Source: Gammaproteobacteria bacterium (GTDB lineage: Bacteria; Pseudomonadota; Gammaproteobacteria; Coxiellales; Coxiellaceae). Taken from it: a DNA stretch of 54,187 nt. Below, piece after piece: positions 14,349 through 32,886 of this stretch. Position 1 is the first letter of the stretch; each line of letters opens with the position of its first letter. Location: NCBI GenBank assembly GCA_030429175.1, contig JAUIDD010000014.1, positions 1 to 54,187 on the forward strand, written 5' to 3'. Position numbers and translations under genes: made by a program. Under the pieces are notes generated by a model that ran no database searches, was not told the origin of the DNA, and worked only from the letters and a program-made list of their open reading frames with translations.

Positions 14349-14490
14349 CCTAACACTCCAAAGTTCACCTAAAGGGGAACGCAGTATACCTGATTCCACA
14401 ACGCGTGTCAGATGTGGATAGCTAGAGGTCAAAACTTGACGCGATCAGTACCATATGGAATGATAGCTATACTTTTTACAAGGAATTGAT

Positions 14491-15219: not shown

Positions 15220-15238
15220 ATTAAGGAGTCTTCTATTT

Positions 15239-16264
15239 ATGCATCCTTTTAAATCACTGACAATTGCAGTAATGACTTCAATCATTTCAACAACTAGTTT
15301 TGCAGTCCCTATATTTAGAATTACGCCGACGGTTAACTCGTTTTCAGTGACGAATGGTACAACCACAGAAGTACAGTATGATGTTCGAAATGTGAGTGGC
15401 CGGCCAATAACAATTACTACTGAAAAAGTGGAAGGGTCTAATACGGCGGTAGCGAGTAGTGCCATTAGCTCTAACTCCACTTGTGAAAATGGTTCGTTAG
15501 CTAATAATGCTGATTGTACTCTAGGTATCGATGTTACTGGTAATGGCACTGGTTCTGAAACAGTACGTCCAATTATATGTGCGTTTAACGGTCAGCTGTG
15601 TAGCAGAGCGCCGGTAGCAACAACGGTAAATGTGGTTGCACAGGGCACTTTTCCTTGTGCAACAAACACGGATGATGATAATAAGCAGTGCCGTGTGTTT
15701 GTCACAAATGGCACTTATAAAGGAGATCTTTCTCAATCAACTGGTAATGCAAATATTTCAAGCTGTCAGAATAATGCATCTGGTGTCACTAAAGGAAATT
15801 GTATTTGTGAGGCAGAAGCAGCTCAGCTTGGATACGGCCATCCAGGGCATTGGCGTGTGTGGTTGTCGACGGCTACCACCGGTGCGATTACTAACATTAA
15901 ATATACCAGTGGTGGCTCGGTGCGTTATGTCAAAGCAGCTGATATTGAATCCACTGTAGCTAATCAGGAAACTTTAGTAGGTACGAATCTGACAAACTCG
16001 ATCGGAGAGAACCAAGTATGTGCTTGGACGGCGACTTCAGCCCAGAACGGCTTGATATCGGGTATAAATGGCACTTGTAATGATTGGACATCCAAAGCTG
16101 TGAATGCAGAACAGCAAGTGGCGAGTGGAAACGTATCTGCTACTTTTGTTAACCAAGACGGAGCTATTTTTGGATGGTCTGAAAATCCTGTCGACGGGGT
16201 GTGCGGCCCTACATTTAATTGTAATACTGAGAATCGTCTATATTGTTTCGAGACACCTAACTAA
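15239..16264 (+). CDS. Secreted protein with a DUF1554-like C-terminal domain
   Basis: The 341-aa protein has a signal peptide (about residues 1-22) followed by a Ser/Thr/Asn-rich region with close cysteines, perhaps an immunoglobulin-like fold. From about residue 147 it has the layout of DUF1554, a secreted cysteine-rich domain known from Leptospira lipoproteins and other bacteria. The blocks are CRVFVTNGTYKGDL, HWRVWLSTATTG, CNDWTS and a final RLYCFE. The function of DUF1554 is unknown; its layout resembles C-type-lectin-like domains. It is probably surface-exposed or released, and disulfide-bonded. It is paired with the upstream barrel-like gene. Confidence 0.75.
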   Translation: MHPFKSLTIAVMTSIISTTSFAVPIFRITPTVNSFSVTNGTTTEVQYDVRNVSGRPITITTEKVEGSNTAVASSAISSNSTCENGSLANNADCTLGIDVTGNGTGSETVRPIICAFNGQLCSRAPVATTVNVVAQGTFPCATNTDDDNKQCRVFVTNGTYKGDLSQSTGNANISSCQNNASGVTKGNCICEAEAAQLGYGHPGHWRVWLSTATTGAITNIKYTSGGSVRYVKAADIESTVANQETLVGTNLTNSIGENQVCAWTATSAQNGLISGINGTCNDWTSKAVNAEQQVASGNVSATFVNQDGAIFGWSENPVDGVCGPTFNCNTENRLYCFETPN

Positions 16265-16293
16265 CGGTATTTGTCAATAGGCCCAGACCTGAC

Positions 16294-19200
16294 TTACGAT
16301 TTATTCTGTACTGGCTTAGGTAGGTGGTGGCGATAGAAAAGCGAGTAGATCGCTGGCACGATAACCAGCGTTAGAATCGTCGAGAAGAACATACCACCAA
16401 TAATCACCCAGGCAAGTGGATGATAGGCTTTCGCGCCAGGACCGCTTGATACAGCAGCAGGAACCATCGCAAAAATGATGGCAAGCGCAGTCATAATTAC
16501 TGGGCGCATGCGTGTAGGGCAGGCTTCAAATAAAGCATCTTTCACCGACCGTCCTTGGACACGCAACTGATTGGTGAGATCTACCAGCAAGATTGAGTTT
16601 TTAGATACTAGACCGATTAATAGTAGCATACCTATAATGCCATACATGCTCAGCGGCTCACCCGTAATCCATAATATAATCACCCCGCCCACAACTGCTA
16701 ATGGTTGCGCCACCATGACAATGATCGGTTGAATAAATGAGTTGAATTGACTTGCCAATACCATATAAACAAATATGAGCATCAACACTATCATCATCAC
16801 TGTACGATGCTCAGCTTTAGAATAGCTGGCACTAGTGCCACTTAAACGTATGACATAACCAGGTTTTAAGATTGGCTCTGCAATTTTATTAATTAAGATA
16901 ATCGCTTTAGTTTCTGGGATTGTCGGTAATGCACTAAAACCAATACTGTAATCTAAATTAGTACGTGTAATACGTGATGGCGCTAAAGACTTTTCAATCG
17001 AGGCAATCGTATCCAGACGCAGATGTGTCTTATCTTTTAAGCGTAAATAAATTTTTGACATGTCAGCAGGAGAGATAAACTGCCCTTCTTTGGGTCGTAG
17101 TAATACTTTATAACGATCACCACCTTTGCTCTCACTAAAGTGACCTATCTTCATACCTTCACCACCCATTACCGACAACGTACGTGCAACATCCGATGAA
17201 GTAATACCAAAGCTATTTGCTAAGATATGATCGACGACAAGATTATACTGCGGCTGATCAGGTGTAAAATGAATATAAACTTCACCAAGCTGATCTTGAT
17301 AATGCCCTAATGCTCTGGATAGCTTAAATGCTTGATCAAGCACTTCTTTGAATTTAGGCCCACGTACTTGGAATGTTAAATAGCTCTTCTTTGAAGGCTC
17401 TTCAACAAAATAACGTGCACCACTTAACCCTTGCACCTGTTGGCGTAATTTATCCATAATAGCTGTTTGGTTTTTAACTGCATATGGTTTTAATTGAATT
17501 GAAACACTACCATCTTTACCAGGACCAAGTGAACTAAAATAATGCTGAATTTCTGGCATCTTATTGAGGATTGCCTCAAGTGCGTCAATTTTCTCTGTCG
17601 TATAATGAATGCTAAAACCTTGTGGTGGCTGCACATCAATTACAAAATAACCCGTACCCTCTGGCGCAGGCGTTAAGCTTACATTTAATGAAAAAAAGCC
17701 TGGTACAGAAATACCAATTACAATAATGACACCTAAAATTGCTAACCACGGATGTACCAATGTCACACGAATAATTTTTTTATAGTATTTTTCAAGCCAA
17801 AGTAATGCGTTTTCAAGCATTGCTTTAATGCCACGAAATTCTGGATCAGGACGAAGAATTTTTTCACATAACACTGGTGTTAATGTCAGAGAGACAATAA
17901 ATGACACAATCACACCAACGGTGATAACAAACCCTAATGAGGCTAAGATTTTGGCAAGCATACCACCCATAAAACCAATAGGAATAAAGATACAGATTAA
18001 AGTTAAGCTCGATGCCAACACAGCAAACACTACTTGATTGGCACCTTGAATAGCAGCTTCTTTACGCCCAAGCTTACCTTCAGTAATATGCCTGGCTGTA
18101 TTTTCTAATACGACGATACTATCATCGATTACAATACCAACTAATACTACCAATGCTAATAAAGTGATCGAGTTAAGCGAATAACCAAACACAGCCAAAC
18201 CCGCTACCGCACCTAATAAGGATATCGGTATCGAGCATAAAATAATAAGTGATGAGCGAAAGTTCTTTAAAAATAAAAAAATCACGAAAGCAGCGGTAAG
18301 CAAACTAATCCAGATATCTTGTTGTAGCTGTGTAATTACCCCATCGATATAGGTTGCCTGATTATAAACCGTAGAAAGAGTCATATTACGTGGTAACATT
18401 GGAATAATCTCGGTCTTTACAACTTGATCGACTTCATCTGCTAACGCCAATGTATTACTATCACTCTTTTTGATAATACTGATACCCACTGAAGGCTGGC
18501 CGGCAAAACGTGCCGCGCTATGATTACTTGCTAACCCTAAACTCACATCTGCCAATCTATCCAATGTAATAGCATGATTATTGCGATATGCAATTACGAG
18601 CTTGCGCAATCCTTCAAGTGTATGATGTTCAACATCCAAACTCATAGAAAAAGATTTTTTACCACTAGTAATCGAACCACCAGGCAATTGCACATGGTTT
18701 TTATTAAAGCCTTCTTCAACTTCAAGTGGTGTTATATTATTTGCCGCAAGCTTATCTAAATCAATTTTAATATTAATTGCTTGATCACTGACCCCCACAA
18801 TTTTAACCTGACCAATGCCAGACAAGTGTGATAATTTCTTTTGAATAAATTGGCGCGCATATCGATCCATCTCAAGTAAGGATGCCTCGCCATGTAGTGA
18901 CAACAGCATAATTGGTGCTGCATTACTTTGGTCTAATGTGATTAATGGTGGCCTGGCATCTTTAGGCAAGTTTGCACGAATATGATTAATGCGATTATCA
19001 ATCTGATTGAAGGCTGAGTTCAAATCAGTCTTCATATTAAATGTGACTTCTATCTGTGACTTACCTGGTCGAGAACTCGACTGAATCACCAGAATACCTG
19101 CTATTGTATTCACTTGCTCTTCAATCGGCTTGGTGACCATTTGGTTAATAATACTCGAATCACCGCCAGGCATTTCAGTTGTGATGGTGATAACTGGGTA

Positions 19201-19323
19201 ACTGATATTTGGTGTCAGCTGTACTGGCAAGTTCACGTAACTGATAATGCCCACCAAAATAAATAGGAAACTCAGCATAGCTGCCATAACGGGACGTTTG
19301 ATGGAAAGTTCTGCTAGTGTCAT
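16294..19323 (-). CDS. RND efflux pump inner-membrane transporter, HAE-1 type
   Basis: The 1009-aa protein is a resistance-nodulation-division proton antiporter that expels hydrophobic compounds through a tripartite envelope channel. It starts MTLAELSIKRPVMAAML, with the first transmembrane helix and then the large periplasmic porter domain. The proton-relay pair is D400/D401 in GIVIDDSIVVLENTARH. A second periplasmic domain and the C-terminal helices (GLVSKNSILLVDLTNQL) follow. Length is standard. Its ATG overlaps the adaptor gene stop by four bases. No TolC-type outer-membrane gene is present here, so the pump must recruit one encoded elsewhere. Confidence 0.96.
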   Translation of the reverse strand: MTLAELSIKRPVMAAMLSFLFILVGIISYVNLPVQLTPNISYPVITITTEMPGGDSSIINQMVTKPIEEQVNTIAGILVIQSSSRPGKSQIEVTFNMKTDLNSAFNQIDNRINHIRANLPKDARPPLITLDQSNAAPIMLLSLHGEASLLEMDRYARQFIQKKLSHLSGIGQVKIVGVSDQAINIKIDLDKLAANNITPLEVEEGFNKNHVQLPGGSITSGKKSFSMSLDVEHHTLEGLRKLVIAYRNNHAITLDRLADVSLGLASNHSAARFAGQPSVGISIIKKSDSNTLALADEVDQVVKTEIIPMLPRNMTLSTVYNQATYIDGVITQLQQDIWISLLTAAFVIFLFLKNFRSSLIILCSIPISLLGAVAGLAVFGYSLNSITLLALVVLVGIVIDDSIVVLENTARHITEGKLGRKEAAIQGANQVVFAVLASSLTLICIFIPIGFMGGMLAKILASLGFVITVGVIVSFIVSLTLTPVLCEKILRPDPEFRGIKAMLENALLWLEKYYKKIIRVTLVHPWLAILGVIIVIGISVPGFFSLNVSLTPAPEGTGYFVIDVQPPQGFSIHYTTEKIDALEAILNKMPEIQHYFSSLGPGKDGSVSIQLKPYAVKNQTAIMDKLRQQVQGLSGARYFVEEPSKKSYLTFQVRGPKFKEVLDQAFKLSRALGHYQDQLGEVYIHFTPDQPQYNLVVDHILANSFGITSSDVARTLSVMGGEGMKIGHFSESKGGDRYKVLLRPKEGQFISPADMSKIYLRLKDKTHLRLDTIASIEKSLAPSRITRTNLDYSIGFSALPTIPETKAIILINKIAEPILKPGYVIRLSGTSASYSKAEHRTVMMIVLMLIFVYMVLASQFNSFIQPIIVMVAQPLAVVGGVIILWITGEPLSMYGIIGMLLLIGLVSKNSILLVDLTNQLRVQGRSVKDALFEACPTRMRPVIMTALAIIFAMVPAAVSSGPGAKAYHPLAWVIIGGMFFSTILTLVIVPAIYSLFYRHHLPKPVQNKS

Positions 19324-20411
19324 AGATTTAGTTTCAATGTTTTGGTTACAGTGACTGGTGCATTATTTGATAAGTATGAAGCACCATCGACGACAACATT
19401 CACTGGACTTGGCATTTTAGCCGTAACAGCTACTTTATTGAGCCAACTATGCAAAATGGTCACCTGAACCATCGTTGCACGACCATTCTTTAAGTAAAAA
19501 ATATAGTCCCCATTAGCTCTTAACACCACACTTTCTTTAGGTAGCATGAAGCCTCTTTCAGGATGGGTTAGATAAATCTGTGCACCCGCACTCGATCCAG
19601 AGTGCCAGTTACCAAAGTTTTGGAAGTGTATAATCACATTAAATGCACGGTTATTCGGATCAATCGATGGCTCAATTGCATCAACAGTACCCACATACAT
19701 CTTGCCAGGTGTTGCCGGAGAAACCATACGAATGTTTTGCCCCACTTGTAATTTACTCACCCGTTCTTGTGAAAAAGGCAACTCTGCTATTAACTCATCA
19801 GGGTTGATGAGTTTCACAATCGGCGTACCTGGTTTGGCAAAATCACCAACGGCGATAAAAATCTTTTGTACGTGTCCCGAAATAGGAGATTTAATAATGG
19901 TACGTTCAAGATTATGTTCTGCTGCAGCCAATGCCTCTTTGGCAACATTTAATCGTTGTATCATCACCTTCATGGTGGCATCTGCTGTCTTAAATTTAAT
20001 GAGAGAAATGGCACCCTTTTTATAGGCTTGTCTGTAGCGCTCGGCAATAAACATCTTTTCAGTCACGTTTGTCTCTGCTGTCGCTAATTCGGCTTTAGCC
20101 TTCTCTAACTCAATGGTCTGACGCTTACTATTGAGTTCGGCAAGTTTCTGATTGAGAGCCACAGGATCACCTACCTTCACCAGAAGCTTCACCACTAACC
20201 CTTCCACCTCCGCTTTAACAGTAGGGTTCTTGCGCGCTCTAATTGAGCCTATAGATGTATAAGGGACATTAATCTGCTGGCTGGTTGCCCGATAGACTGT
20301 TACCGGAGTAGGCTTATCTTTCTGTTTTTTATCAGATTTCTTAGAGTCACACGCTACCAAGCTTAACGCTAGTAACAACAGAAACATAATGTGTAATTTA
20401 CGGAAAATCAT
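19320..20411 (-). CDS. RND efflux periplasmic adaptor lipoprotein
   Basis: The 363-aa membrane fusion protein links the RND pump to an outer-membrane channel. The lipobox LVAC places the lipidated cysteine at residue 21, followed by a Lys/Asp-rich linker. Barrel-sandwich halves flank a helical hairpin (about residues 95-160). The second half reads IIKSPISGHVQKIFIAVGD, with beta-barrel and membrane-proximal domains after it. It is first in the two-gene operon with the transporter. Confidence 0.95.
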   Translation of the reverse strand: MIFRKLHIMFLLLLALSLVACDSKKSDKKQKDKPTPVTVYRATSQQINVPYTSIGSIRARKNPTVKAEVEGLVVKLLVKVGDPVALNQKLAELNSKRQTIELEKAKAELATAETNVTEKMFIAERYRQAYKKGAISLIKFKTADATMKVMIQRLNVAKEALAAAEHNLERTIIKSPISGHVQKIFIAVGDFAKPGTPIVKLINPDELIAELPFSQERVSKLQVGQNIRMVSPATPGKMYVGTVDAIEPSIDPNNRAFNVIIHFQNFGNWHSGSSAGAQIYLTHPERGFMLPKESVVLRANGDYIFYLKNGRATMVQVTILHSWLNKVAVTAKMPSPVNVVVDGASYLSNNAPVTVTKTLKLNL

Positions 20412-20446
20412 GCCAAAAAATCCATTTAAAAGGTGTTTTCAACTGT

Positions 20447-20474
20447 AGCATATTTTTTAAGCTTTTGAAATCAA
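20447..20474 (-). promoter_or_regulatory. Candidate sigma-70 promoter for the efflux operon
   Basis: On the minus strand TTGATT (20469-20474) and TATGCT (20447-20452) are spaced by 16 bp, about 36 bp before the adaptor gene start. Both boxes match the consensus at four of six positions. Confidence 0.45.
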
Positions 20475-20515
20475 GGGTAAGATTATCGTAGCTCATAGCG
20501 TGACGCGGCTTAGAG

Positions 20516-23500
20516 TCAGGAATTATCTGGTTTAACACTAGGAGCTAATTCCAGTGGACGTTGCTTTTCAGGATCATCATCCTGAGCCTTAACTTCATTA
20601 TCAGTTAATGATGGTCCAGCATCATCATTGCTTTTATGTGGACTTAACACACTGTCAATATCATCAGGAGAAGCCGTAACTGTTTGCTTCTCAGAAGAAT
20701 GTACTAACTTATCAAACATATTACGAACAGAATTAAATTTTGATGCAACATTTTCTTTTAATGTACCTTTTACTAATTTGTCTTTTAAAATTCCTTGAAG
20801 TTGCTTCGCTTCTTTACGTAACTCAGCTATGGCATCACTATTCTGGACTGAACCTAAACGACCTTTCTTATATTCTGCAATTTGAAGTTCAATTTCTGTC
20901 AATCTTGCAGGAATGTTCTTGAGTGTTTGCGTTTCAACTGATGCACCTGAATCAGGAGAAGCGTCAATATTGACGCTTTCACCTGCACTAAATGAATGTA
21001 ACCCTTCAATAATTTGGGGCCATTGAGTTCCTTGACTCAGAATTTGTATTTGCTGTTGCTGTGTTAATTGCTCAAATTCATCATAATCACGTGCAACAGA
21101 TTGCTTTAGAGCTTCTTGTGCACTTTCTAATAAGTTAATCTTTTTGGTAGCTTGTGTTGATGGATTTGCTTGAGCATCTGCTGTTGCATCTGTTAATTCA
21201 GCATTTAATTTATTGATAGCTAGCACATCAGTTGAGAATTTAGCCTTAATGAGTTTTATTTGAAAATCAGGTGACTTTACTGCTTGTGAATTAAGGATTG
21301 CATCATTGGCCTCTTTAAGCGTTTCTCTTGCACTGAATAACTCACTTGTTATTTTTTCATATGCTAACGAACCTTTTGCATCACTAATTTTAGCGAGTAA
21401 GCTATAAATTTGTTCTTTTATCGAATCAATTCTCAACATTACGTTAATCGCATCATCAGAGTCTAATGATGATACAGCATCATTTTTAGTAAGTTCAGCA
21501 TTAATTTCTAAGGATACATCTTTAAAATAGCCTGCCGTTCTAAATGCAGCTGAATCAATATTGCCAAATTTTGTTACTGATAAACTTGAGATACCATATA
21601 ATGCACCACCAATCATCATTAGAGATTCAGCAGATGACATGATATGTTGAAATATCGTCAAGTTTGATGAAGAGAACGAAGACTTAACCATTGTCACAAA
21701 GCCTTTGGCATTATCTGCTATACAACTCGCCGTACCCGTACCCGATCCAGCACAAGCTTCTGCCATATTGGCTCCCATCTCAGCAAGGCCCAGCTCAGGA
21801 ATAATAAATCCAACAAAACCTAAAGCCGTATTGATGTTTTTAGCAACTTTTGTGTTAGCGCCACCAGCAAACGTATCCACCGCAGCTTGCACAGTAACGT
21901 ACGCTGCTCCTAAAGTTGCAACTGTTCCAATGGTTGTAGCAGCTTCAGCAGCAAATGCCGCAACGTCAGCTGGGAAAAAATAAACTGCACTAGCTACAGT
22001 CGCAACACCAACTACAGCATCAAGTAAAAAATCATACCACTTAGAACCACTAAACATATGTTTAATACCATCACCGATAGCTTTAAACTCACGCCCTGCC
22101 TGACAAGCAAATTCTTTTAATTTATTCGAAGTTTCACATTCATATAGTGGCGTTATAGCTTGTTTAACAAATTGTTGCATCGAAGCAGAGCCTGTAATCT
22201 CACCCTCCTGAGATTGTGTCAGCTCGCTTGCAACCAATACAGAGGTGTAACTTAGATTATCCTCATCAAACGACACTATAGCCTTAGAGTAGTAGTTACT
22301 GTTTGAACCACCCTTGATAGTATAATTCACTAAATTAAATGGGTTATATGTGCTGAAAAGATATTTATTCAAAAATGCAGTGCTGCTTGAAGACGCAGCA
22401 AACTCTTGTGATAATGTGGTACCCTGTTGCTGTGCCTGATATTCAGCTGCAAGATTAAGTAGAAGCGCGTGGTCAGTTGCAGCATTTGTAGCATTATTTT
22501 CAAGAGAAGAAAATAATGCATTGGGATCATTACCAGCATCTTGCTTTGCTTCACTATATGTCTGCAAGCCCGTTAGTAATTCACCAAATTGTGTTGCATT
22601 AATTTTCTTGTTCATAATTGCCCATTTGATTATCTCTTTCTGAGCTGTAGTAAGATTAGGTGCATTTGGTAACACCAGATTATTATATGCCTTGAGTGGA
22701 TCTTGATTGAAAATAGTGATCAGCTTGGCATTGTTAAGCTCATTATTGCCAAAAGGCTTTTCAAGTTTTAATGTATTAGGTGCTGGTAACTTATATGTTG
22801 TTGCAAGTGTATTAGGAGAACAATCCGCGGATGATGAAGAGGATGACATGCAATTAGCAATTGCAGTTTGTTCAGCTGTCAGCTTACAAAAAGTTGAATT
22901 TGAAGTAGAGGTACAGCTCTCACTATTTGAATCATATGTAGAAAGTTTATTATTAATAATAGTTAAATATTGGTTATAAACAACCTGATTTCGCATCTGC
23001 TCAAGTGCTGCAGATGATGTTGATGGTATATCTAAAGCTGGATTTTTTAGCAAGTTAATATAGCCGTCTAATTTAGATACGGTAGGTGGCTTTAACGAAG
23101 TCATTAACTTACTAAATAAAGTATTAACATCTGACATACTAAAATAAGCATTTCCATTTACCGCATTAATAGACTTAGCATAGTTAGTCGTTAGCTGCGC
23201 TAATACAACTGCATTTAATACATTAATCACGTCACTAGTATGTCCTACATTCAAATAGTGATCAACTTTAGCTTGTACATTTGGTTTGTATAGATAACTT
23301 AGTATATTATTAAGATAACGCTTGTTACTATTAATTGTATTTATATAGGTTTGATATTCAGGTGAGTTCTTATTAGCTGAAAGAATTTGGGTTGCATTAC
23401 TAAAATCTAAATAGGCCTTTAATAAGCTTTGATTTAAATTCATTTGTGAAGAAAGCACAATCCCTGCTGGGTCAATTCTACCATTTGATAACAACTGATT

Positions 23501-26500
23501 GATCGTATCAATATTAAAGCTCGTTAGATTTTGGGTAGTAACATCACTATTAGCAAGTTGCTGAATCACATCTGGAAGATATTTATTTTTAGCCTGGTCC
23601 TTAAGCAGCAGCGTAAAAGCATTAATTACATTGCTAGTGACATTATTATTTGCAATCAATTGCGAAGCCATTTTAAAACTAGCCCATAAATTTGAATTTG
23701 TTTCATTTTCAGGCTCTGCCATAAATTGTATTAATTTAGTGAATGCAGGCATCAAACTATTCATATATTTACTGCTAGCATTTTGATTAATAAAATCTGC
23801 AAGCGCATTTAGAGCAATTTTCTTATGATTTATCGACACAAACTTATTAATCGCAGTCATTGTCGATTGAAGCGTTACAAAAAAGCGAGTTGAATTAAAA
23901 TCAGCATTGTTTTGAGCTAAAATATTCCATATTGCAGCAGCTGTTGAATCATCAAGTATTGGATTACCAGCAATGATTTTATCAGCTTGCGAAATACTGC
24001 TCATATAGTTATTGATAACTTCTTCAGCGTTGGGATTAGTCATATTATTACTGAGCAATTTCATTAATGGCACTGCAATTGATGGTGGGGTATACAGGTT
24101 ACGGCCATATTTAGCAACACTCAAAGCAACTGTCTCTTGGGTTGAAACACCAAAAGAGGGGTGTAGACGAAAAAACAAAGACATGTTTTCGCTTTTGGAA
24201 AAAAAGCCCCCGCCTCCCATCTGGTTACTAAGATTCCATACTCGCTTGAGTGTTTTAAGCTGCTTCACAAAATTAACAGGATAGTATGTGTTTTTAGATT
24301 GTTGACTAATGCCTGACAAATATGAATTGATCGTATTTATATTCATTTGAACATTTATATTGTTACTTTTGTTGAGATAATATTTACGAAGATTAATGAC
24401 AGCTTGTGTCACGTTGTTTAAAGATTCATATTCTAATTTATTCGTATAAAATTTTATGGCACTATATTGTTGAAGCATCGAATTAAATGTACTGGCAATA
24501 GCAGGTCCCGAAGCAGGATTTGCCTCTAAATTCATAAACATCTTACTGACAAATTCTTTCCAATAAATCCCCCCATCTAATGACTGCATATACTGTCCAC
24601 TAGGAGAGGATGCTGCAGATTCAATTGATTTAAGCGCATTATTAAAACCATTAAGATTCGAATTTAAATTAGGGCTTGAACCATTATTTGCGATATATTG
24701 TGTGATAGCTGACATTAAAGTATTTTTTGCGTTCGTTGAAGCGGAATTCACTTTCTGCGTTGAATCTTTAACTGCTACACCAAGTCCAGCAAGTACAGCA
24801 TTATTAGTAGCAAAGCTATTTATACTACTCGCATAAGTGGGGATATTTGCATATGATTGTAAAATAGCGGTCGAATTAGCAGGATTAGCAGCGAGTGTTT
24901 TAACAATACTAGCTTCAGAAATACCATTCGGTGTACCATTTTGATTCATCCAATTAGTTGAAAATACGGGCTTAATTTCATCCTGGGCTGTTGATCCAGA
25001 TTGGCCAAAATCAGAATATGACCCTTTAATAAGACCGAAGTATTTAGTAATGTTTTCACGAAATGTTTCAATTGTTGTTGGAAGATTATTACTATTCGCA
25101 TTTTTACGCGCATAATTCCAAATTGCTTGAATCAAATTATTCTCATCAGTGGTAGACAGTGCAGCAGTGATATTAATCTTAGAAAAAATATTTTTTTCTC
25201 GTAGTAAAGAGATTACATTTAAATCTGAATATACTTGACTCGGATTTATTTTTAGTTGTTGTTGTAAATTATCTAAATATTGATTCCAAGGAATCTTATT
25301 TACCTCACTTAATGTCAACACTTCAGCTTGATCTGATTTTGACGGTGCAGGTATAATAGCCTTTGGATAATTTCCTGGGGCTGGAAAGTCAGAGGTTGCT
25401 TGCTTGAGTTTTTCTATTAAAGTAAGACTGGAGTTAATATTAGCAATATTCGCACTTAAGTTTGGTTTAGAAATATTATTTTCTAAATAACTAACAATAA
25501 TTCCTTTACTAACTGTATTTTTATCACCAACTACCTGCTTTAATGCTAACAGCATGTCGCTAGCCTGGCCTGGATGAGCTGATACAGTAGAAAGTAATTT
25601 TTCAAGCGTAGGCTGTAGTGTTGCCGTATCACTGCTATTGTTCTGTTTAAATAAACTTTGAAGCGTGCTTAAATTTGTGTTTATATACTCCATTAAATTC
25701 GCATAGGACTTAGTTACACTAACTACCTCACTATTGCTATAATTTTGTTGGAAATATGTAGTAACAGAGCCTACTATTTGGGTTTTCAACTTTTGATCGA
25801 TTAGCCCCTTACCAAAAAAACTATCTGCTATATTAATAAGTAAGCTATTATTTGCTGAAATTTTAGTTAAGTTAGAAATAATAATCTGTGCACTTGCAGG
25901 TTGTGTTGATATTAATTCAAAAGCTGCTTTTAGTAAATTTGAATTATTACCTGTAGGATCTAGCATATTAAAATCAAGGTTCCAAAAACTGAGTGCATAA
26001 CTAGATGCAAGCTCATATACATTTGAATCTTGAGCATTATTCTCGATTAATCTTATGTAACCCTTACTTATATCATTCAAAAAAGGTTGGATATCAAAGC
26101 CTAAACTCATTCTTTTTATGCTTAAATTAGCATCTAATAAATCATTTAATTGTAGAATGCCATTAGAAATACCGTTTAAACTGTATGGATTATTTATCGC
26201 ATATGTTAATAATGCCTTATAAGCAGGCATCTGAAGGACAGGTGACGACCCTGATTGACCAGATGAAGCATTACTTACGATGTACTGAAACCCTTGAGAT
26301 ATACTTGTTGCTGCTTGTGCGAGATTAGGATTATTCAAATTTGTAAGGAAATATTTATGAATACTATCAACTAAATTACGGTAGAGCTCGGCATTTGGCA
26401 CAGTTGGTAGCTGATACTTAGGCAGCCCAGCCCCTGCAAAAATACCTGTTTTAATAAAATTATTAACAACCACTTGAGCTGCTGGAGCCACATTTGGATG

Positions 26501-29500
26501 CTCAAGCATATTAGTAAAAAACAATAGGCTTAATGGGTTACCAAAATTAGGTAGCTGCTTAAACGCATTGAGCGCAGAAATAAAATTTGTTGCTACTGTA
26601 TTGGCATTCGCTATTGCCGTAGGCGCAAGCGCAATCTTAGAATAAAATGCTGTTTCAATAGTGCTTTTATAAGGCATTAAGTACGCTGGAAGCGAGTTAA
26701 TAGCTTGGATTGCGCTTGAAAAAGTACTAGCACTGGGGAAATTAACACTCGATGCAGGATTATTGACTAGTGCCGTTATCTGCTGGTTAATGATGTTATT
26801 CCATTGCTGTGATGTCACATTATCTGGCCTAGTAGCTATAGTTAGCTGTTGAAGTGCATTGGCATAACCTGCAATAACATTACCAACATTTTGATTGCCG
26901 ATATTCTTTATTGCATACTCATAAATAGCTTTTTGTAATGCAGGTGCGCCAGCTTTAACAACTGGTGATGCTGAAAACTGTGCTCTATAGAAAGCCGTCC
27001 CAATCGTGCTTTTGCTGCTTAACACTTGATTCAGCCAGTTTGAGCTGCGCTCGGAAGCACTTTTAGTTAGATTTGGGCTCGTAATATTAAAATGTAGATT
27101 TGATACACCAACAATACTATCTATATTCGATGAGGCACTAGGATCTTTTGATAGAGCAACCATCAGTGATTTAATCATTGTATTCCAGGTTGCAGGCTGC
27201 CCATTTACGCTAAAATCTAAATTCTGTGTTGTCCGGTAATAATCACTATAAAAAGTATTTTTATGAAAATTTTGATAGGCTTTTAAATTGAGAAATAATT
27301 TCACATAGTCTTTTTGAATATTTTCATTATAAACTTTTGTATTATAATAATTAAGTCGATTACTGAGCGCATTTGTACGATACCAAGACCACGGAATTTC
27401 TGTATCACCATTGTATACAGTTACAGATGTCAAAAAGACTTTTAATAAATTTTTTAAAGATGTAGGCTTACCGCCCAAATAAGGTACTGATTGAGCACCA
27501 ACCAGTTGACTACTAGAGATGTCAGAAGTCATGTTAGATGCTTTTGCACCATATGCCCACAGTATTGCGGATTGTAGCTGGTTACTTGCATTTGATATAA
27601 ACCATTGTGTAAATTCTTTCATATAAGCCTGATGAGAAATATTTTTTGTATATGTCGGCGGTGTAGCACTTAAACCCGCTTTACCGCTACCGGCTATACT
27701 TGGATGATCTGGCGCTACAATCGTTTTAGACAGTCCATTCCAATAGGATGGCGTTGACACTGTTACAAATCCCGGCATCTGCATGTTATCAACATCTGAA
27801 TTAGGCAGACTAACTTGCTGTGCTAACTTATGCAAACCTAAACTATAATTGCTGACCTTACTGGTCATTAATGTACTATTCATATTTTTAAGTGCTGCAT
27901 TAATAGCTGCTGACTTCAGTATCGGTTTAATTGAATCTACAGCTGCGGGAAATTTATCAAAATTTTGTAGCTGTGTGTATAGCGAAGATAAATCATTTTC
28001 AATAACACTAACGCTATTTGCTCTAACACCATAAATAATTTCCTGGAATTTCTGAATTTGTGTGGCTGATAGTGAAGATTTACTTGTATTAATAAAATTA
28101 TTTACTGCATAATATAATTGTGGTGTATTATTTAAAATAATACCAAGAGAACCACTATTTTTATTATTCATAAATACTTTAAATGCAACATCAGCAGGTA
28201 TCTTTGTGGTTAGCGACTGAAGCGCCTGAAGAAAGCTATTTACTGAACCATTTGTTGACGCTTGACTAGATACCCACTTAGCAAGCTGCAGCATTTGCGA
28301 GGATGATAATTGGTTTTTCATTGAATTGAGTGTTAATAAAGCCGCTTGAATACGCTGTGCATTACTTTGAATATTAAAGCAAGAGTACGTCTGGTTTGGG
28401 CATGACGTAGGCGCAACTAAATTCGTTAATAACGAAACAACATTTTTTGGTGGTAACTGCTTTAGCAAATCCACTAAAAACCCACTCACTGGCAGCCCTT
28501 TATTATCACTCATATATGTATTTAAATTTTTTGTAATTAACTCTAAAATATTCGATTGTGACTGGAATGCTAACACTAGATCTGCTGCAGATTGCCCGCC
28601 TATAAATGATGCTATTATTTCAAAATTCTGAATACTATTCGTAGCATTTCCACCATTATTTTGCGCTGTTAAAAGCATGTTAACCAAGCCCAGTACTGAG
28701 CTTGAATTTAATTTTGATGTATAGCTTTGAATAATTTGTAAATTTGATAAAAATAATGCTGGTAATACTGGTGCTACTGACGAGTCAGGAAGCAAATCAC
28801 ACTGAACACCTTGGCCAGGGACACAATTACCCGTAAGTATTGCCTGTAATATCTCGACAGACATTAAGCTTAATGATGGCAGTATATTATTGATTAAAGT
28901 CACAGCACCGGGATTGTTTATCGTTTTTAATGCTTGATTAATCTCACCAATATATGTTTGTTTTGCATTAATAGAAACTTCTTGAATAAGCTGATTTATA
29001 TAATCAAGTTGATTTGGATTATTAATAATGTAGTTAACCACAGTTGGATATGATTGTTGTAAATAACCAAGCTGAGTAACAGCTGCAATCAATCCCATAA
29101 AAGGTTTACCATTTTGCACGCGATCCAACACAAGCGTTGCAAGCTGCTGCATATTACTTTGTGACAGTCCTCCTGCTGGCATACTCAAAATCTGCATAAA
29201 TGCTGATGTAACTTTAGGCTGATTACGTTGTAGATATGCACAAACTGATTCTGAAGCTGTACAATTATTACTATTTATATTGGTGAGTGTTTCAATAATA
29301 CCTGGAGCAGCGGTAGGTAACATACTTTTAAGCAAAGTTGCAATCGATGTAGAGTAGTTCTGGTCAATAAGTTTTTTTAAATTGGTAATATCAGGTGATG
29401 CTTTTGTGCTATTTGCTATATTTTGTGTACCTGAAGATGTCTGATTACCCGTTATTGTTCCTGCAGAATAAACAGTAACACAGCCAAACAGCACGCCGAG

Positions 29501-29554
29501 GCAGACCACAGCATGGTATTTGATCTTGTGATATATCTCATTAATTCTGCTCAT
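20516..29554 (-). CDS. Giant exported protein, 3012 aa, unknown function
   Basis: I recognise no family. The N-terminus has a basic start and a hydrophobic stretch (HAVVCLGVLFGCVTVYSAG) consistent with a Sec signal. Residues ~35-2480 are rich in Asn, Ser, Gln and Thr and mostly helical, with a recurring degenerate NPxxA-x-x-I element suggesting an alpha-solenoid. A hydrophobic, Ala/Gly-rich section follows at about 2505-2660 (VVGVATVASAVYFFPADVAA), then coiled coil to ~2930 and a disordered acidic, proline-containing tail. Apart from two cysteines in the signal region, its 14 cysteines form seven close pairs (for example C98/C105), as expected for disulfides outside the cytoplasm. It is last in a three-gene operon, 33 bp after the 625-aa gene. 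An adhesin, toxin or envelope scaffold are all possible. Confidence 0.8.
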   Translation of the reverse strand: MSRINEIYHKIKYHAVVCLGVLFGCVTVYSAGTITGNQTSSGTQNIANSTKASPDITNLKKLIDQNYSTSIATLLKSMLPTAAPGIIETLTNINSNNCTASESVCAYLQRNQPKVTSAFMQILSMPAGGLSQSNMQQLATLVLDRVQNGKPFMGLIAAVTQLGYLQQSYPTVVNYIINNPNQLDYINQLIQEVSINAKQTYIGEINQALKTINNPGAVTLINNILPSLSLMSVEILQAILTGNCVPGQGVQCDLLPDSSVAPVLPALFLSNLQIIQSYTSKLNSSSVLGLVNMLLTAQNNGGNATNSIQNFEIIASFIGGQSAADLVLAFQSQSNILELITKNLNTYMSDNKGLPVSGFLVDLLKQLPPKNVVSLLTNLVAPTSCPNQTYSCFNIQSNAQRIQAALLTLNSMKNQLSSSQMLQLAKWVSSQASTNGSVNSFLQALQSLTTKIPADVAFKVFMNNKNSGSLGIILNNTPQLYYAVNNFINTSKSSLSATQIQKFQEIIYGVRANSVSVIENDLSSLYTQLQNFDKFPAAVDSIKPILKSAAINAALKNMNSTLMTSKVSNYSLGLHKLAQQVSLPNSDVDNMQMPGFVTVSTPSYWNGLSKTIVAPDHPSIAGSGKAGLSATPPTYTKNISHQAYMKEFTQWFISNASNQLQSAILWAYGAKASNMTSDISSSQLVGAQSVPYLGGKPTSLKNLLKVFLTSVTVYNGDTEIPWSWYRTNALSNRLNYYNTKVYNENIQKDYVKLFLNLKAYQNFHKNTFYSDYYRTTQNLDFSVNGQPATWNTMIKSLMVALSKDPSASSNIDSIVGVSNLHFNITSPNLTKSASERSSNWLNQVLSSKSTIGTAFYRAQFSASPVVKAGAPALQKAIYEYAIKNIGNQNVGNVIAGYANALQQLTIATRPDNVTSQQWNNIINQQITALVNNPASSVNFPSASTFSSAIQAINSLPAYLMPYKSTIETAFYSKIALAPTAIANANTVATNFISALNAFKQLPNFGNPLSLLFFTNMLEHPNVAPAAQVVVNNFIKTGIFAGAGLPKYQLPTVPNAELYRNLVDSIHKYFLTNLNNPNLAQAATSISQGFQYIVSNASSGQSGSSPVLQMPAYKALLTYAINNPYSLNGISNGILQLNDLLDANLSIKRMSLGFDIQPFLNDISKGYIRLIENNAQDSNVYELASSYALSFWNLDFNMLDPTGNNSNLLKAAFELISTQPASAQIIISNLTKISANNSLLINIADSFFGKGLIDQKLKTQIVGSVTTYFQQNYSNSEVVSVTKSYANLMEYINTNLSTLQSLFKQNNSSDTATLQPTLEKLLSTVSAHPGQASDMLLALKQVVGDKNTVSKGIIVSYLENNISKPNLSANIANINSSLTLIEKLKQATSDFPAPGNYPKAIIPAPSKSDQAEVLTLSEVNKIPWNQYLDNLQQQLKINPSQVYSDLNVISLLREKNIFSKINITAALSTTDENNLIQAIWNYARKNANSNNLPTTIETFRENITKYFGLIKGSYSDFGQSGSTAQDEIKPVFSTNWMNQNGTPNGISEASIVKTLAANPANSTAILQSYANIPTYASSINSFATNNAVLAGLGVAVKDSTQKVNSASTNAKNTLMSAITQYIANNGSSPNLNSNLNGFNNALKSIESAASSPSGQYMQSLDGGIYWKEFVSKMFMNLEANPASGPAIASTFNSMLQQYSAIKFYTNKLEYESLNNVTQAVINLRKYYLNKSNNINVQMNINTINSYLSGISQQSKNTYYPVNFVKQLKTLKRVWNLSNQMGGGGFFSKSENMSLFFRLHPSFGVSTQETVALSVAKYGRNLYTPPSIAVPLMKLLSNNMTNPNAEEVINNYMSSISQADKIIAGNPILDDSTAAAIWNILAQNNADFNSTRFFVTLQSTMTAINKFVSINHKKIALNALADFINQNASSKYMNSLMPAFTKLIQFMAEPENETNSNLWASFKMASQLIANNNVTSNVINAFTLLLKDQAKNKYLPDVIQQLANSDVTTQNLTSFNIDTINQLLSNGRIDPAGIVLSSQMNLNQSLLKAYLDFSNATQILSANKNSPEYQTYINTINSNKRYLNNILSYLYKPNVQAKVDHYLNVGHTSDVINVLNAVVLAQLTTNYAKSINAVNGNAYFSMSDVNTLFSKLMTSLKPPTVSKLDGYINLLKNPALDIPSTSSAALEQMRNQVVYNQYLTIINNKLSTYDSNSESCTSTSNSTFCKLTAEQTAIANCMSSSSSSADCSPNTLATTYKLPAPNTLKLEKPFGNNELNNAKLITIFNQDPLKAYNNLVLPNAPNLTTAQKEIIKWAIMNKKINATQFGELLTGLQTYSEAKQDAGNDPNALFSSLENNATNAATDHALLLNLAAEYQAQQQGTTLSQEFAASSSSTAFLNKYLFSTYNPFNLVNYTIKGGSNSNYYSKAIVSFDEDNLSYTSVLVASELTQSQEGEITGSASMQQFVKQAITPLYECETSNKLKEFACQAGREFKAIGDGIKHMFSGSKWYDFLLDAVVGVATVASAVYFFPADVAAFAAEAATTIGTVATLGAAYVTVQAAVDTFAGGANTKVAKNINTALGFVGFIIPELGLAEMGANMAEACAGSGTGTASCIADNAKGFVTMVKSSFSSSNLTIFQHIMSSAESLMMIGGALYGISSLSVTKFGNIDSAAFRTAGYFKDVSLEINAELTKNDAVSSLDSDDAINVMLRIDSIKEQIYSLLAKISDAKGSLAYEKITSELFSARETLKEANDAILNSQAVKSPDFQIKLIKAKFSTDVLAINKLNAELTDATADAQANPSTQATKKINLLESAQEALKQSVARDYDEFEQLTQQQQIQILSQGTQWPQIIEGLHSFSAGESVNIDASPDSGASVETQTLKNIPARLTEIELQIAEYKKGRLGSVQNSDAIAELRKEAKQLQGILKDKLVKGTLKENVASKFNSVRNMFDKLVHSSEKQTVTASPDDIDSVLSPHKSNDDAGPSLTDNEVKAQDDDPEKQRPLELAPSVKPDNS

Positions 29555-29587
29555 TTTAAGCTACCACACTAAAACTAAACATAGTGA

Positions 29588-31465
29588 CTACTCCTGATTC
29601 GCTCCCTCAACATATTCCTGTGAACTATTAACTGTTCCTGATGGCGCCTCTGGCACTGATGTTCCAATGACACTATTGGACGCTGCTACACCATTCGTAG
29701 CTTGTGGATCAGACACTGTACCACTTGCCGCTTTTGGTGCAATCGCGGCATCACTCACAGCTGTGCTTGATTTAGCTCTAGTTAAAGAACGCCAAATCGT
29801 ATGACCCACTGATTTCAGTTTACCGATAAGACGTCCAAATAAACCGCTCACACCTGTAGTTGATTTAGGACCTTTTGCTTCCAAACTTGGAGTGTTAATT
29901 GATTCAGGATCTTTTGCTTCCAAACTTTGAGTCTTATAAGAATCGAAGACTTGATTTAAAACATTACTTAAAAATCCAACTTTTTTTGTGCTCGATGCCG
30001 TAGTTGATGTGTCCTTTTTTACCGTTCTTGAAACTTTTTTAGTGTCTACACCAAACAGTTTATCTAACACTCTCTTAACAAGCGCTGGATCGCTCCCGAA
30101 TATATTTTCTTCCCCACTCGTTGCGTCATCAAAAATATTGTCAGATGCAAAAGTTTCATTATACTCTTTAGTTATTGATCTTATAATTGTCTCAAGGTTC
30201 GATGACTGTAGTGTTTTTATTGTAGATTCAGTGGCATTTTCCTTTATTCCTGCGAGATATTTTTCAGAAAATTCATTATTATATTTGTCAGCCCATACTT
30301 GTATTTCAGTTAAAGCTACTTCAGCCTTAGGCTTCAATTTACCTTTATATTGAGTTCGAATGTCTTCTATAAGTTGCTGTGTATTAGTCAGCGATAATTC
30401 CTCTGCAATTTGCTTTCTTATCTTGGGCTTAAGTGCCTTTTTCATGTTCTTTAAAACGTCTGTCTTCACTGCATCTCTAAATCCATCGTTATAAAGTTCA
30501 TATAGTTTTTCATAAGCTTCTGGATCAATTTCTTGTGGATCCTGAACCTGATCCTGCTTTAAGCGTCTAAGATTAGTATTTTCTACCTTCGATCTTCCTG
30601 AACCAGCTTTCGAGAGTACACGATTAGCTTGTTCATAAAGATTGGCATTATTTTTAATACTTTTCTCAAGTGATGAAAGCTCTGCTAAATGTGAATCTAC
30701 AAGGCTATTTAGATAATCATCCTTAACTGCAGCAATTGACTTTTGCAAATCTTTAAGACTATATCCACTTAAAGGACTATTTTTAAACTCACTTATAGAC
30801 TCCTTGAAGCTATCTGTGCTACTAGATAAAAAGCTTACACCGTTAGTTGTTGTAGTTTCGCTTAGCTTACTTGCTAATTTTGCTTCTAAAGCCTGGGCTC
30901 TCTCTAATAACTCATTTTTTATTGCTATTTCAGCTTGACTTAAATTTTCCATAACTTCGTCAAAAGTATAACCGCCATCACTTGAGTCATTATTACCTGT
31001 TACATTTTTTAACTGTTCCAATCTAGTATTCGATACAGCTAATTGTTCAGCATAGATACTCAATTTACTATTTAATTCAGTACCCATCTGACTCATCATA
31101 TCTTGAACTTCCGCTATATGCTCTTGAAGCAATGCAGTCTTAACTGGCATCGATAATTTCTCTATCAAATTCTGTGTATCTACTTCAGTCTTACTCCCGT
31201 CTTTAAGATCAATCTTGTATAAACCATAATGATCAACATGTGTTAGAATTTGCTCGTTTGTTGCATCAGTATCTAAGCCCAAAGCCTCTGCTATAGAGCT
31301 GATATCATCTGAATTAAAATCATCGCTATTATTTTTAAGAAGATATTCCAACTCTGCATCAGCACTATCTGGAGTATAAAAATCCCCTAACTCAATTGCA
31401 TAAGTAAACGTACTAACACTGAGTAGTAGACTTGTAAATAACATTATTATTGTTTTCTTGACCAT
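29588..31465 (-). CDS. Exported coiled-coil protein, 625 aa, operon partner of giant protein
   Basis: Not recognised as any known family. A clear signal peptide (MVKKTIIMLFTSLLLSVSTFTYA) is followed by an acidic N-terminal region with LGLDTDATNEQI. A long helical/coiled-coil body (about residues 110-420) comes next, then a basic segment with GLFGRLIGKLKS (near 545) and a Ser/Thr/Ala-rich disordered tail. No cysteines were seen in the mature part. It shares both the LGLD-DAT element and the FGRLI element with the upstream 413-aa protein, so the two are probably diverged paralogues. AGGA precedes the ATG. The gene lies 23 bp after its upstream neighbour. Confidence 0.8.
   Translation of the reverse strand: MVKKTIIMLFTSLLLSVSTFTYAIELGDFYTPDSADAELEYLLKNNSDDFNSDDISSIAEALGLDTDATNEQILTHVDHYGLYKIDLKDGSKTEVDTQNLIEKLSMPVKTALLQEHIAEVQDMMSQMGTELNSKLSIYAEQLAVSNTRLEQLKNVTGNNDSSDGGYTFDEVMENLSQAEIAIKNELLERAQALEAKLASKLSETTTTNGVSFLSSSTDSFKESISEFKNSPLSGYSLKDLQKSIAAVKDDYLNSLVDSHLAELSSLEKSIKNNANLYEQANRVLSKAGSGRSKVENTNLRRLKQDQVQDPQEIDPEAYEKLYELYNDGFRDAVKTDVLKNMKKALKPKIRKQIAEELSLTNTQQLIEDIRTQYKGKLKPKAEVALTEIQVWADKYNNEFSEKYLAGIKENATESTIKTLQSSNLETIIRSITKEYNETFASDNIFDDATSGEENIFGSDPALVKRVLDKLFGVDTKKVSRTVKKDTSTTASSTKKVGFLSNVLNQVFDSYKTQSLEAKDPESINTPSLEAKGPKSTTGVSGLFGRLIGKLKSVGHTIWRSLTRAKSSTAVSDAAIAPKAASGTVSDPQATNGVAASNSVIGTSVPEAPSGTVNSSQEYVEGANQE
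29862..29939. repeat. Two tandem 39-bp units inside the 625-aa gene
   Basis: Two adjacent 39-bp units encode SLEAKDPESINTP and SLEAKGPKSTTGV, a 13-residue duplication in the disordered linker before the FGRLI segment. The nucleotide copies share CTTTTGCTTCCAAACTT, which points to recent slippage or duplication. Confidence 0.8.
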
Positions 31466-31488
31466 TGTAATATCTTCCTAATTCAATT

Positions 31489-32730
31489 TTAAGGCTGATT
31501 TTGTGGTATGGCATTATTCGGACCTAAACCATCTCCTTCTTGAGGTGCAAAATTTAGGTTTGAACTATTACTGCTTGATACATCATCATTACTATTTTTA
31601 GTTGGTGAACGAATAAGTCTTCCAAATAAATTTTTCACGCTGCCAATAATACGTGTACCTAGACTCGGCTTCTTTATGTTTTTAAGGGCTTGCATAAGTG
31701 CGTTTGATACTGTTACATTTACTGTACTATCATCTTTAGCTATTCGTAAATAATCGCCCACCACACTTTCAACAAATGCAGGTGAATATCCAGACCAATC
31801 CCCGTTAATACTAGGTAGATCAGCATTTAATTGACCAGATTTATCGATAAATGTTGCATATTTTTTACAACTTGATAACACCAGATTCTTTAATTTTAGC
31901 AAATTAGCTTTATCAAAATCTTCTGTGTTGAGATCCGAGCTATTAGCTAGTGTTTTCAATGCAGTTTGAAACTTTGTATTTTTTTCAAGACTTGATTTTA
32001 CAATAGCTTCTTTTACAGCTAAATTCATTTTAGATTTTAAAGCGTTAAACTTACTAGCATCATGCCATGAATTTTCAAAATCTGAAAATTGATCAGTAAT
32101 ATCAGTAGATTTTAGTATACTACTACCAATTGCACTTTTATAAGTTTGCATTAATTGAGTCATGTCTGATGCTAATGTTGCATGAGCTGTCATCACAGCA
32201 TCAAAACGCTTATCAACAGTTCTATCTATAGCTGGTCCAGAATCAAAAATTGAATCTGTAATTGCACTTATTGCTTGATATTTTTCCGGAGATAAATATG
32301 CTTGAGCTAATTTATTGATGCTATCTTTTTTGAAGCGTAAAATAGCTGATTGAACCTTCTCAGGTGATTTCATAAATAAATTTGATGCGCTAATACTTTT
32401 TGGTGCTGCCCCGTCTAGTGTGTCTGATGATGTATTTATATTTAGACTACTGAGCGCCTGTCTAATATCTTCAGATGTTGCATCTTCGTCTAAACCTAAT
32501 AAATTTTTAAGTGGATTCCAATCAGAATCACTAGCTCGATGTTCTTGGCCTTTAATTGCTTCCTCGTAATCTTTCAAAAAAGCACCAGCATCTCCATTAT
32601 ACAGCTCACTAATATGATCCATAGCAGCTGCATCTTCAGGAACAACCATATCCAATGTAAGCGCATAAGTACTCGCACTTAAACATAACACTAAACTCGC
32701 GACCAAGGCTGTTATCAATTTTCTTATCAT
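31489..32730 (-). CDS. Exported helical protein, 413 aa, first gene of the operon
   Basis: Not recognised. The signal peptide is MIRKLITALVASLVLCLSASTYA. The mature protein starts with an acidic helical region containing LLGLDEDATSEDIRQAL, superficially like the start of a J-domain but with no HPD. A mostly helical body of about 250 residues follows, then KNLFGRLIRSPTKNSND and a disordered Ser/Asn-rich tail. It is the smaller relative of the following 625-aa protein. A good promoter candidate lies about 35 bp upstream. The role is unknown; a periplasmic helper or co-secreted partner of the giant protein is a reasonable inference. Confidence 0.8.
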   Translation of the reverse strand: MIRKLITALVASLVLCLSASTYALTLDMVVPEDAAAMDHISELYNGDAGAFLKDYEEAIKGQEHRASDSDWNPLKNLLGLDEDATSEDIRQALSSLNINTSSDTLDGAAPKSISASNLFMKSPEKVQSAILRFKKDSINKLAQAYLSPEKYQAISAITDSIFDSGPAIDRTVDKRFDAVMTAHATLASDMTQLMQTYKSAIGSSILKSTDITDQFSDFENSWHDASKFNALKSKMNLAVKEAIVKSSLEKNTKFQTALKTLANSSDLNTEDFDKANLLKLKNLVLSSCKKYATFIDKSGQLNADLPSINGDWSGYSPAFVESVVGDYLRIAKDDSTVNVTVSNALMQALKNIKKPSLGTRIIGSVKNLFGRLIRSPTKNSNDDVSSSNSSNLNFAPQEGDGLGPNNAIPQNQP

Positions 32731-32764
32731 AATCTGATATCCACATACACGCCCACATACTAAC

Positions 32765-32792
32765 AGAATAGTACATAAATAATGTTTAACAA
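32765..32792 (-). promoter_or_regulatory. Candidate sigma-70 promoter for the three-gene secreted operon
   Basis: On the minus strand TTGTTA (32787-32792) and TATTCT (32765-32770) are spaced by 16 bp, in the AT-rich gap between the serB-type gene and the 413-aa gene. No other obvious promoter was seen in the short gaps inside the operon. Confidence 0.45.
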
Positions 32793-32886
32793 GTATGGCT
32801 GTTGTTATCTTATTGAATAAAAATAAAAGATATCAATGGATTGTAAAAAAATGTCGAAAACTATTGCGATATTACAATTAATTGCT

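Follow-up and report, generated by a model that had tools for sequence, protein, structure and literature searches.

A giant repeat protein and two smaller paralogous proteins, all with signal-like starts, encoded side by side in a Coxiellaceae genome

The window analysed here, the whole of a 54,187-bp stretch (contig JAUIDD010000014.1 of assembly GCA_030429175.1, positions 1 to 54,187, a gammaproteobacterium of the family Coxiellaceae), holds three adjacent genes, designated S, M and G, of which the last encodes a giant protein. With a confidence that falls somewhat short of even, we favour the reading that the three form one unit, in which G is likely a Sec-exported, disulfide-locked helical rod at the envelope or surface, and S and M are likely its co-exported partners. 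The bases for placing such a unit in the envelope or outside the cell are the paralogy of S and M, the signal-like starts of all three proteins, the shared architecture of their ends, their low GC content at third codon positions (GC3) and the paired cysteines of G. An earlier note on this DNA had proposed that S and M are helpers or co-exported partners of G in an envelope or extracellular system; that the three belong together is favoured by the analysis, whereas helper function and location, like partnership and co-transcription, are what we infer. The genes and the start of G are situated as follows (window positions and strand).

31489 to 32730, minus strand: gene S, 413 amino acids (aa), signal-peptide-like start (residues 1-23), paralogue of M
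29588 to 31465, minus strand: gene M, 625 aa, signal-peptide-like start (residues 1-23), zero cysteines
20516 to 29554, minus strand: gene G, giant of 3012 aa
29459 to 29554, minus strand: signal sequence of G, residues 1-32 (boundary by inspection), with lipobox-like LFGC at Cys25

The order of transcription is S, M, G, with a gap of 23 bp between the first two genes and of 33 bp between M and G; the three co-directional genes described previously were exact in coordinates, strand and lengths. The reading frame of G is open over 3014 codons, and its start is well fixed because the ATG sits two codons downstream of a stop. Since the chance of 3012 open codons at the composition of G is about 1e-98 by a random-sequence estimate, the frame is not attributable to chance; the five remaining frames contain 127-407 stops. 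By hydropathy and inspection all three N-termini are signal-peptide-like, in agreement with the export signal formerly assigned to each protein. Those of S and M are clean, and in that of G the hydrophobic core is preceded by a longer basic stretch. Because Cys25 of G fits what we take to be the lipoprotein-box pattern, which is matched in neither S nor M, the signal type of G is ambiguous: the protein may be either cleaved by signal peptidase I or a predicted lipoprotein.

Past the signal, G possesses 14 cysteines arranged as seven pairs with a spacing of 7-11 residues (98/105, 244/252, 385/392, 2214/2223, 2235/2245, 2473/2484 and 2601/2611), a pattern reproduced in 0 of 200,000 random placements. 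Such pairing points to an oxidising compartment. It should be added that DsbB is encoded twice in this genome, both copies being above cut-off. The first three pairs and two features of the C-terminal part of G are listed below.

28379 to 29263, minus strand: three N-terminal cysteine pairs of G (98/105, 244/252, 385/392)
21770 to 22039, minus strand: Ala/Gly-rich, marginally hydrophobic section of G, residues 2506-2595
20519 to 20677, minus strand: acidic tail of G, residues 2960-3012

The late Ala/Gly-rich hydrophobic section pointed out in the earlier note is present within residues 2506-2595, and on the scale we assumed its hydrophobicity is marginal and not that of a clear transmembrane helix. 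As the cysteine pairs 2473/2484 and 2601/2611 flank it, both sides are expected outside the cytoplasm, with the section forming a hairpin or not crossing the membrane at all; if it is in the membrane, the number of crossings should be even. The acidic tail, also reported before, has a net charge of -8 across the last 53 residues. A section that is marginally hydrophobic on this assumed scale would equally fit soluble export and later insertion, and G might be an exported toxin-like protein, the repeat arm of which binds, the Ala/Gly-rich section of which inserts in a membrane, and to which S and M are accessory or protective. The genome does have type II secretion genes, but zero toxin families or catalytic domains were found in the four libraries scanned (Pfam, NCBIfam, PADLOC and PHROGs), and S and M, being signal-like and paralogous, are unlike cytoplasmic immunity proteins; we consider the toxin-like alternative quite unlikely.

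Type II secretion takes folded proteins exported by Sec, and its machinery, as expected where type II substrates are made, is present in the same genome: gspD was found above cut-off with gspE, F, G and H adjoining. Dot/Icm genes are there as well, namely DotI/IcmL twice, DotH/IcmK and a TrbI-domain DotG/IcmE-like protein, and S, M and G could alternatively be Dot/Icm type IVB substrates delivered into a eukaryotic host. Apart from these genes, the disordered-looking, net acidic C-termini of the three proteins and the occurrence in the window of further large proteins without a Pfam family agree with such delivery; however, seven close cysteine pairs are unexpected in a cytoplasmic protein, and the signal-like N-termini seen by hydropathy in S, M and G speak against it. 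The presence of Dot/Icm genes would fit the Legionellales setting assumed in the earlier note. Five tested secreted proteins of Coxiella burnetii are reported to require the signal sequence for secretion and Dot/Icm effectors to be typically without an N-terminal Sec signal (PMC3882888), and novel type II secretion substrates are reported in Legionella in another study (PMC6617341). Given their signal-like starts, S, M and G are therefore predicted to fit Sec export followed by type II secretion better than the Dot/Icm route, which we regard as improbable.

Comparison of the protein sequences indicates that S and M are paralogous: a single BLASTP comparison gave an E-value of 2e-6 across the first 130 residues, and the score of the mature N-terminal parts alone was reached in 1 of 5000 shuffles. 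Furthermore, S, M and G share an ending made of a basic amphipathic helix and then a disordered-looking, net acidic tail, the helices being positioned as given here.

31600 to 31659, minus strand: C-terminal amphipathic helix of S, about residues 358-377, the strongest amphipathic window of the protein
29780 to 29839, minus strand: C-terminal amphipathic helix of M, about residues 543-562, the strongest amphipathic window of the protein
20684 to 20737, minus strand: predicted C-terminal basic amphipathic helix of G, residues 2940-2957

Ranked by amphipathicity among 18-residue windows, this helix is 1st of 365 in S, 1st of 577 in M and 29th of 2964 in G. When the C-terminal motif of S (SVKNLFGRLIRS) was aligned without gaps to that of G (SVRNMFDKLVHS), the score was reached in 20 of 1500 shuffles. 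The common ending of the three proteins as a related feature is, on these alignments, suggestive and not proven. At the DNA level, the M gene includes a 39-bp doublet with copies 87-89% alike (window 29857-29934, minus strand), which was the only tandem repeat of the window at default score; other DNA repeats in the region were weak.

Judged from its sequence, G is a repeat protein, and the repeats are predicted to be helical, as had been anticipated in the earlier note, which described a long helical repeat region. The coiled coil also mentioned there was seen solely as long helices in a low-confidence model.

23801 to 28993, minus strand: repeat region of G, residues 188-1918, with nine clear units of about 100 residues, three more at E <0.01 and weaker ones

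A fixed motif of 34 residues started from three seeds had 10 occurrences in G at E <0.05 (residues 200-2077, nine aligned), while eight shuffled sequences, in each of which the two stretches that matched best served as seeds, yielded 2 occurrences (seven controls) or 3 (one control). This fixed-length motif with its controls replaced a hidden Markov model growing each round, which drifted and covered nearly all of G. The full repeat unit is about 100 residues long. Its profile, run against 292 open reading frames from the window and ten loci, recovered only G (E 6.5e-150; next E 0.21), with 12 matches at E <0.01, the nine building copies included, and weaker others within residues 303-2356. 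BLASTP of G against itself gave no off-diagonal match; in a sliding-window self-comparison the best score was 86, versus 68 among 2500 shuffled pairs. The model of the unit, calculated with the nine G units as alignment, has four helices, with a predicted local distance difference test (pLDDT) value of 70.7 and a predicted template modelling score of 0.54. Asn-Pro was tried as a turn signature of the repeats and rejected, being not enriched (12 observed, 12.0 expected).

Among 36 family genomes, which make up the entire order in the sample, S, M and G each matched their own genome alone. The same was true of S and of the C-terminal quarter of G (residues 2270-3012) in a class-wide search of 369 genomes, which sample a larger group. 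A word-based search of 5.8 billion proteins was performed with M, whole G and G 2290-2780 as queries (S was left out), scoring for each query about 8000 candidates, those sharing most five-residue words, and returned only self-matches for M and G. Pfam and NCBIfam gave nothing above cut-off for any of the three proteins: the best matches, HOOK_N with M (E 0.021) and PRK10503 with S (E 0.022), were both far below the cut-offs, and for G there were 0 Pfam families at E up to 1. PADLOC and PHROGs, scanned without cut-offs, produced only Unk_03 with G (E 0.054) and phrog_17451 (E 0.018) and phrog_328 (E 0.093) with S. The four libraries name no domain in S, M or G, in line with the earlier note, in which none could be named. 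Sequence search of the PDB with G and S (M was left out) resulted in single chance-level matches (E 0.34 and 0.55, respectively). Zero relatives were found on viral contigs scanned with M only, on named genome contigs scanned with G, and on plasmids scanned with S and with G minus its first 19 residues; no title on such an operon was among the open-licence PMC papers listed in the literature searches.

GC3 of S (0.186), M (0.248) and G (0.248) was the lowest of the 19 window genes measured, the 16 others, including the rest of the 18.4-kb stretch listed below, being at 0.299-0.392. This low GC3 sets S, M and G apart as one unit, distinct from the RND (resistance-nodulation-division) gene pair next to them. 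Their co-transcription would rest on the short gaps, because neither promoter-like nor terminator-like sites exceed what chance would give: the region had 43 promoter-like matches versus 51.6 (standard deviation 7.5) in shuffles, and 4 terminator-like sites versus 6.7. Operon evidence from such patterns was accordingly rejected. Promoter matches at 9 of 12 positions comprised two upstream of S, three overlapping the first gap and none in the second gap. The promoter candidate formerly placed ahead of the first gene does not stand out, with equal matches elsewhere and such sites no commoner than in shuffled DNA; the absence of recognisable promoters from the gaps, also claimed, agrees with the second gap and less well with the first.

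The three genes are part of a larger segment with the following components.

14433 to 32886, no strand assigned: 18.4-kb stretch (242-aa and 341-aa proteins, RND pair, G, M, S), missing at the same place in genome G022
19320 to 20411, minus strand: RND efflux periplasmic adaptor, 104 bp downstream of G, same strand
16294 to 19323, minus strand: RND efflux permease, 4-bp overlap with the adaptor gene

Proximity of the RND genes brings in a further explanation, according to which G is a periplasmic or inner-membrane-anchored scaffold, never at the surface, working with the neighbouring pump. The adaptor and permease genes do follow G at 104 bp on the same strand, and a decayed copy of the end of G elsewhere in this genome (contig C46:397-573, locus L004; 155 nt, 82% identity), the sole further copy seen of any part of S, M or G, overlaps 61 nt that match the beginning of the adaptor gene (79%). 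This joining, which is consistent with a scaffold, suggests that the G-to-RND order is older than the copy. On the other hand, GC3 of the RND genes is ordinary (0.332 and 0.387), unlike that of S, M and G, and RND permeases are present in 32 of the 36 family genomes, whereas S, M or G occur in their own genome only; we hold the scaffold to be unlikely. The closest matches of the permease were 33% identical, with none above. The decayed copy adjoins a weak DDE transposase match (E 0.0025, below cut-off) and lies near a thymidylate synthase-like gene (by inspection), with Dot/Icm genes on the same contig.

In the same-genus genome G022 (locus L028), the serB-like and 2-oxoglutarate-oxygenase genes are 43 bp apart, against 18.4 kb in the window. 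As this genome is 68% complete, absence of the genes elsewhere in it proves little, and the 18.4 kb may be either a gain in the present genome or a loss in G022. Inspection of nine relative loci, some of them cut by contig ends, revealed hemF near the serB-like gene in 6 of 9 and none of S, M and G; other genes stand between hemF and the serB-like gene in G030, G008 and G024. These records suggest that lineage-specific genes of the family tend to settle around the serB-like gene. S, M and G could be ordinary fast-evolving orphans, each with an unrelated function, on an island acquired recently, as might be expected from zero relatives in the searches made and from the differing neighbours of the serB-like gene in several relatives. 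The paralogy of S and M, however, and the low GC3 and end architecture common to all three count against unrelated functions, and we give this explanation little credence.

Other genes at this site deserve mention. In G022 a 734-aa protein with RTX calcium-binding repeats (L028, 8714-10918) is located between the serB-like gene and a sodium transporter, a spacing of 155 bp in the window. In G024 a 326-aa protein with a weak Peptidase_C58 match (L029, 1234-2214; E 0.0045, below cut-off) separates the oxygenase gene from the serB-like gene, at the position that S, M and G occupy in the window. Within the 18.4-kb stretch, two adjacent genes on the plus strand (14491-15219 and 15239-16264) encode the 242-aa and 341-aa proteins, both with signal-peptide-like starts and without a Pfam family at 0.01; by inspection, the former has the look of a small outer-membrane barrel and the latter is cysteine-rich.

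Further observations concern genes outside this stretch. A 391-aa protein (window 41000-42175, plus strand) has a weak SidD_cat match (Pfam, E 7e-5, below cut-off) and ends with CVVL, presumably a CaaX-like prenylation box; it looks like a candidate for a host-targeted Dot/Icm effector. A 342-aa F-box protein (L055, 9029-10057, on contig C46), detected above cut-off, is encoded next to Dot/Icm genes. Large proteins of 762, 1010, 418 and 709 aa (window 36760-39048, 44339-47371, 50250-51506 and 51476-53605, minus strand) have no Pfam family at 1e-5, and that of 762 aa shows many hydrophobic stretches by inspection.

Under the favoured reading, in which G is an exported rod and S and M are its partners, the three proteins would be made together and cross the inner membrane by Sec. 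G would be oxidised by the Dsb system in the periplasm, so that disulfides lock the helical rod, and would most likely use type II secretion to pass the outer membrane. The marginally hydrophobic residues 2506-2595 or a lipid at Cys25 might provide its anchor, and the basic amphipathic helix with the acidic tail could be a docking or sorting element common to S, M and G. The rod would work at the envelope or surface, most likely touching a host or a neighbour cell, with S and M as partners; this contact or adhesion role we infer by analogy with giant helical-repeat surface proteins.

Several points weigh against this reading. Release of G from the periplasm is a prediction, and there is no homologue to show conservation or function of S, M and G; since the three are without detected relatives, every test by conservation is blocked. 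Compared as whole proteins, neither S nor M is significantly similar to G (51 of 300 and 31 of 300 shuffles), and the likeness of the C-terminal motif is modest, the score being reached in 98 of 1500 shuffles for S-M and in 1233 of 1500 for M-G. The unit profile touches S and M weakly (single-sequence E 0.018 and 0.0085, respectively). The unit model is of moderate confidence and was built on the protein's own repeats as alignment; its fold matches are weak, with scores at a level common for helical proteins generally and best neighbours that are mostly designed helical repeats, so that 'predicted helical repeat' is a fair description, and naming a fold would go too far. For the C-terminal quarter of G the model is too uncertain to be used (pLDDT 41), and promoter-like sites around the three genes are not above chance.

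The repeats and paired cysteines of G, the paralogy of S and M and the lack of relatives together amount to more than an annotation gap, with a functional handle absent. Of the 2.3 Mb of this genome, about 12 kb of coding sequence are spent on three exported-looking proteins for which no relatives were detected. If the favoured reading is true, a Dot/Icm lineage, which probably lives with a host, has a giant helical surface rod of unknown ancestry together with partners; G would represent a type of giant bacterial surface protein not described before, on which the oxidation of a 3000-residue protein and its movement through the envelope could be studied. It is doubtful that the system goes as far as a new Gram-negative class of giants, with a disulfide-stapled rod of a dozen or more units, two dedicated paralogous partners exported along with it, host contact, and a shared C-terminal tag by which the three dock to each other or to a common export or surface machinery.

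Regarding known giants, the Pfam scan of G, which was empty up to an E-value of 1, detected neither the RTX calcium-binding repeats of type I-secreted giant adhesins nor the N-terminal TPS domain of CdiA/FHA-type two-partner exoproteins. The same scan gave no FIVAR/GA-type repeats, the families of Ebh/Embp giants, and with its repeats matching no recognisable family G is not assigned to the Embp family. The nearest analogy is nevertheless Embp (Ebh-type) of Staphylococcus epidermidis: both are giants of many repeats, those of Embp being alpha-helical bundles that form a rigid, elongated structure (PMC7587433), and those of G being helical by prediction, with no detectable sequence relation between the two. 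Embp is a 1-MDa protein of a Gram-positive surface, and G has roughly a third of that size; its paired cysteines, and the two paralogues with signal-like starts encoded next to it, are further differences from Embp. In Apilactobacillus kunkeei, a different kind of bacterium, consecutive genes of a small genome encode the very large extracellular proteins Giant1-5 (PMC12863079); those are five giants of 3,000 to 8,000 aa, whereas here one giant occurs with two smaller paralogues, a distinction made by description. Also comparable are NttA-G of Legionella, 'novel' type II substrates of bacteria that likewise have a type II system, several of them listed without a close homologue (PMC6617341); the Ntt proteins are secreted, and S, M and G, the secretion of which is predicted, can be set beside them by description.

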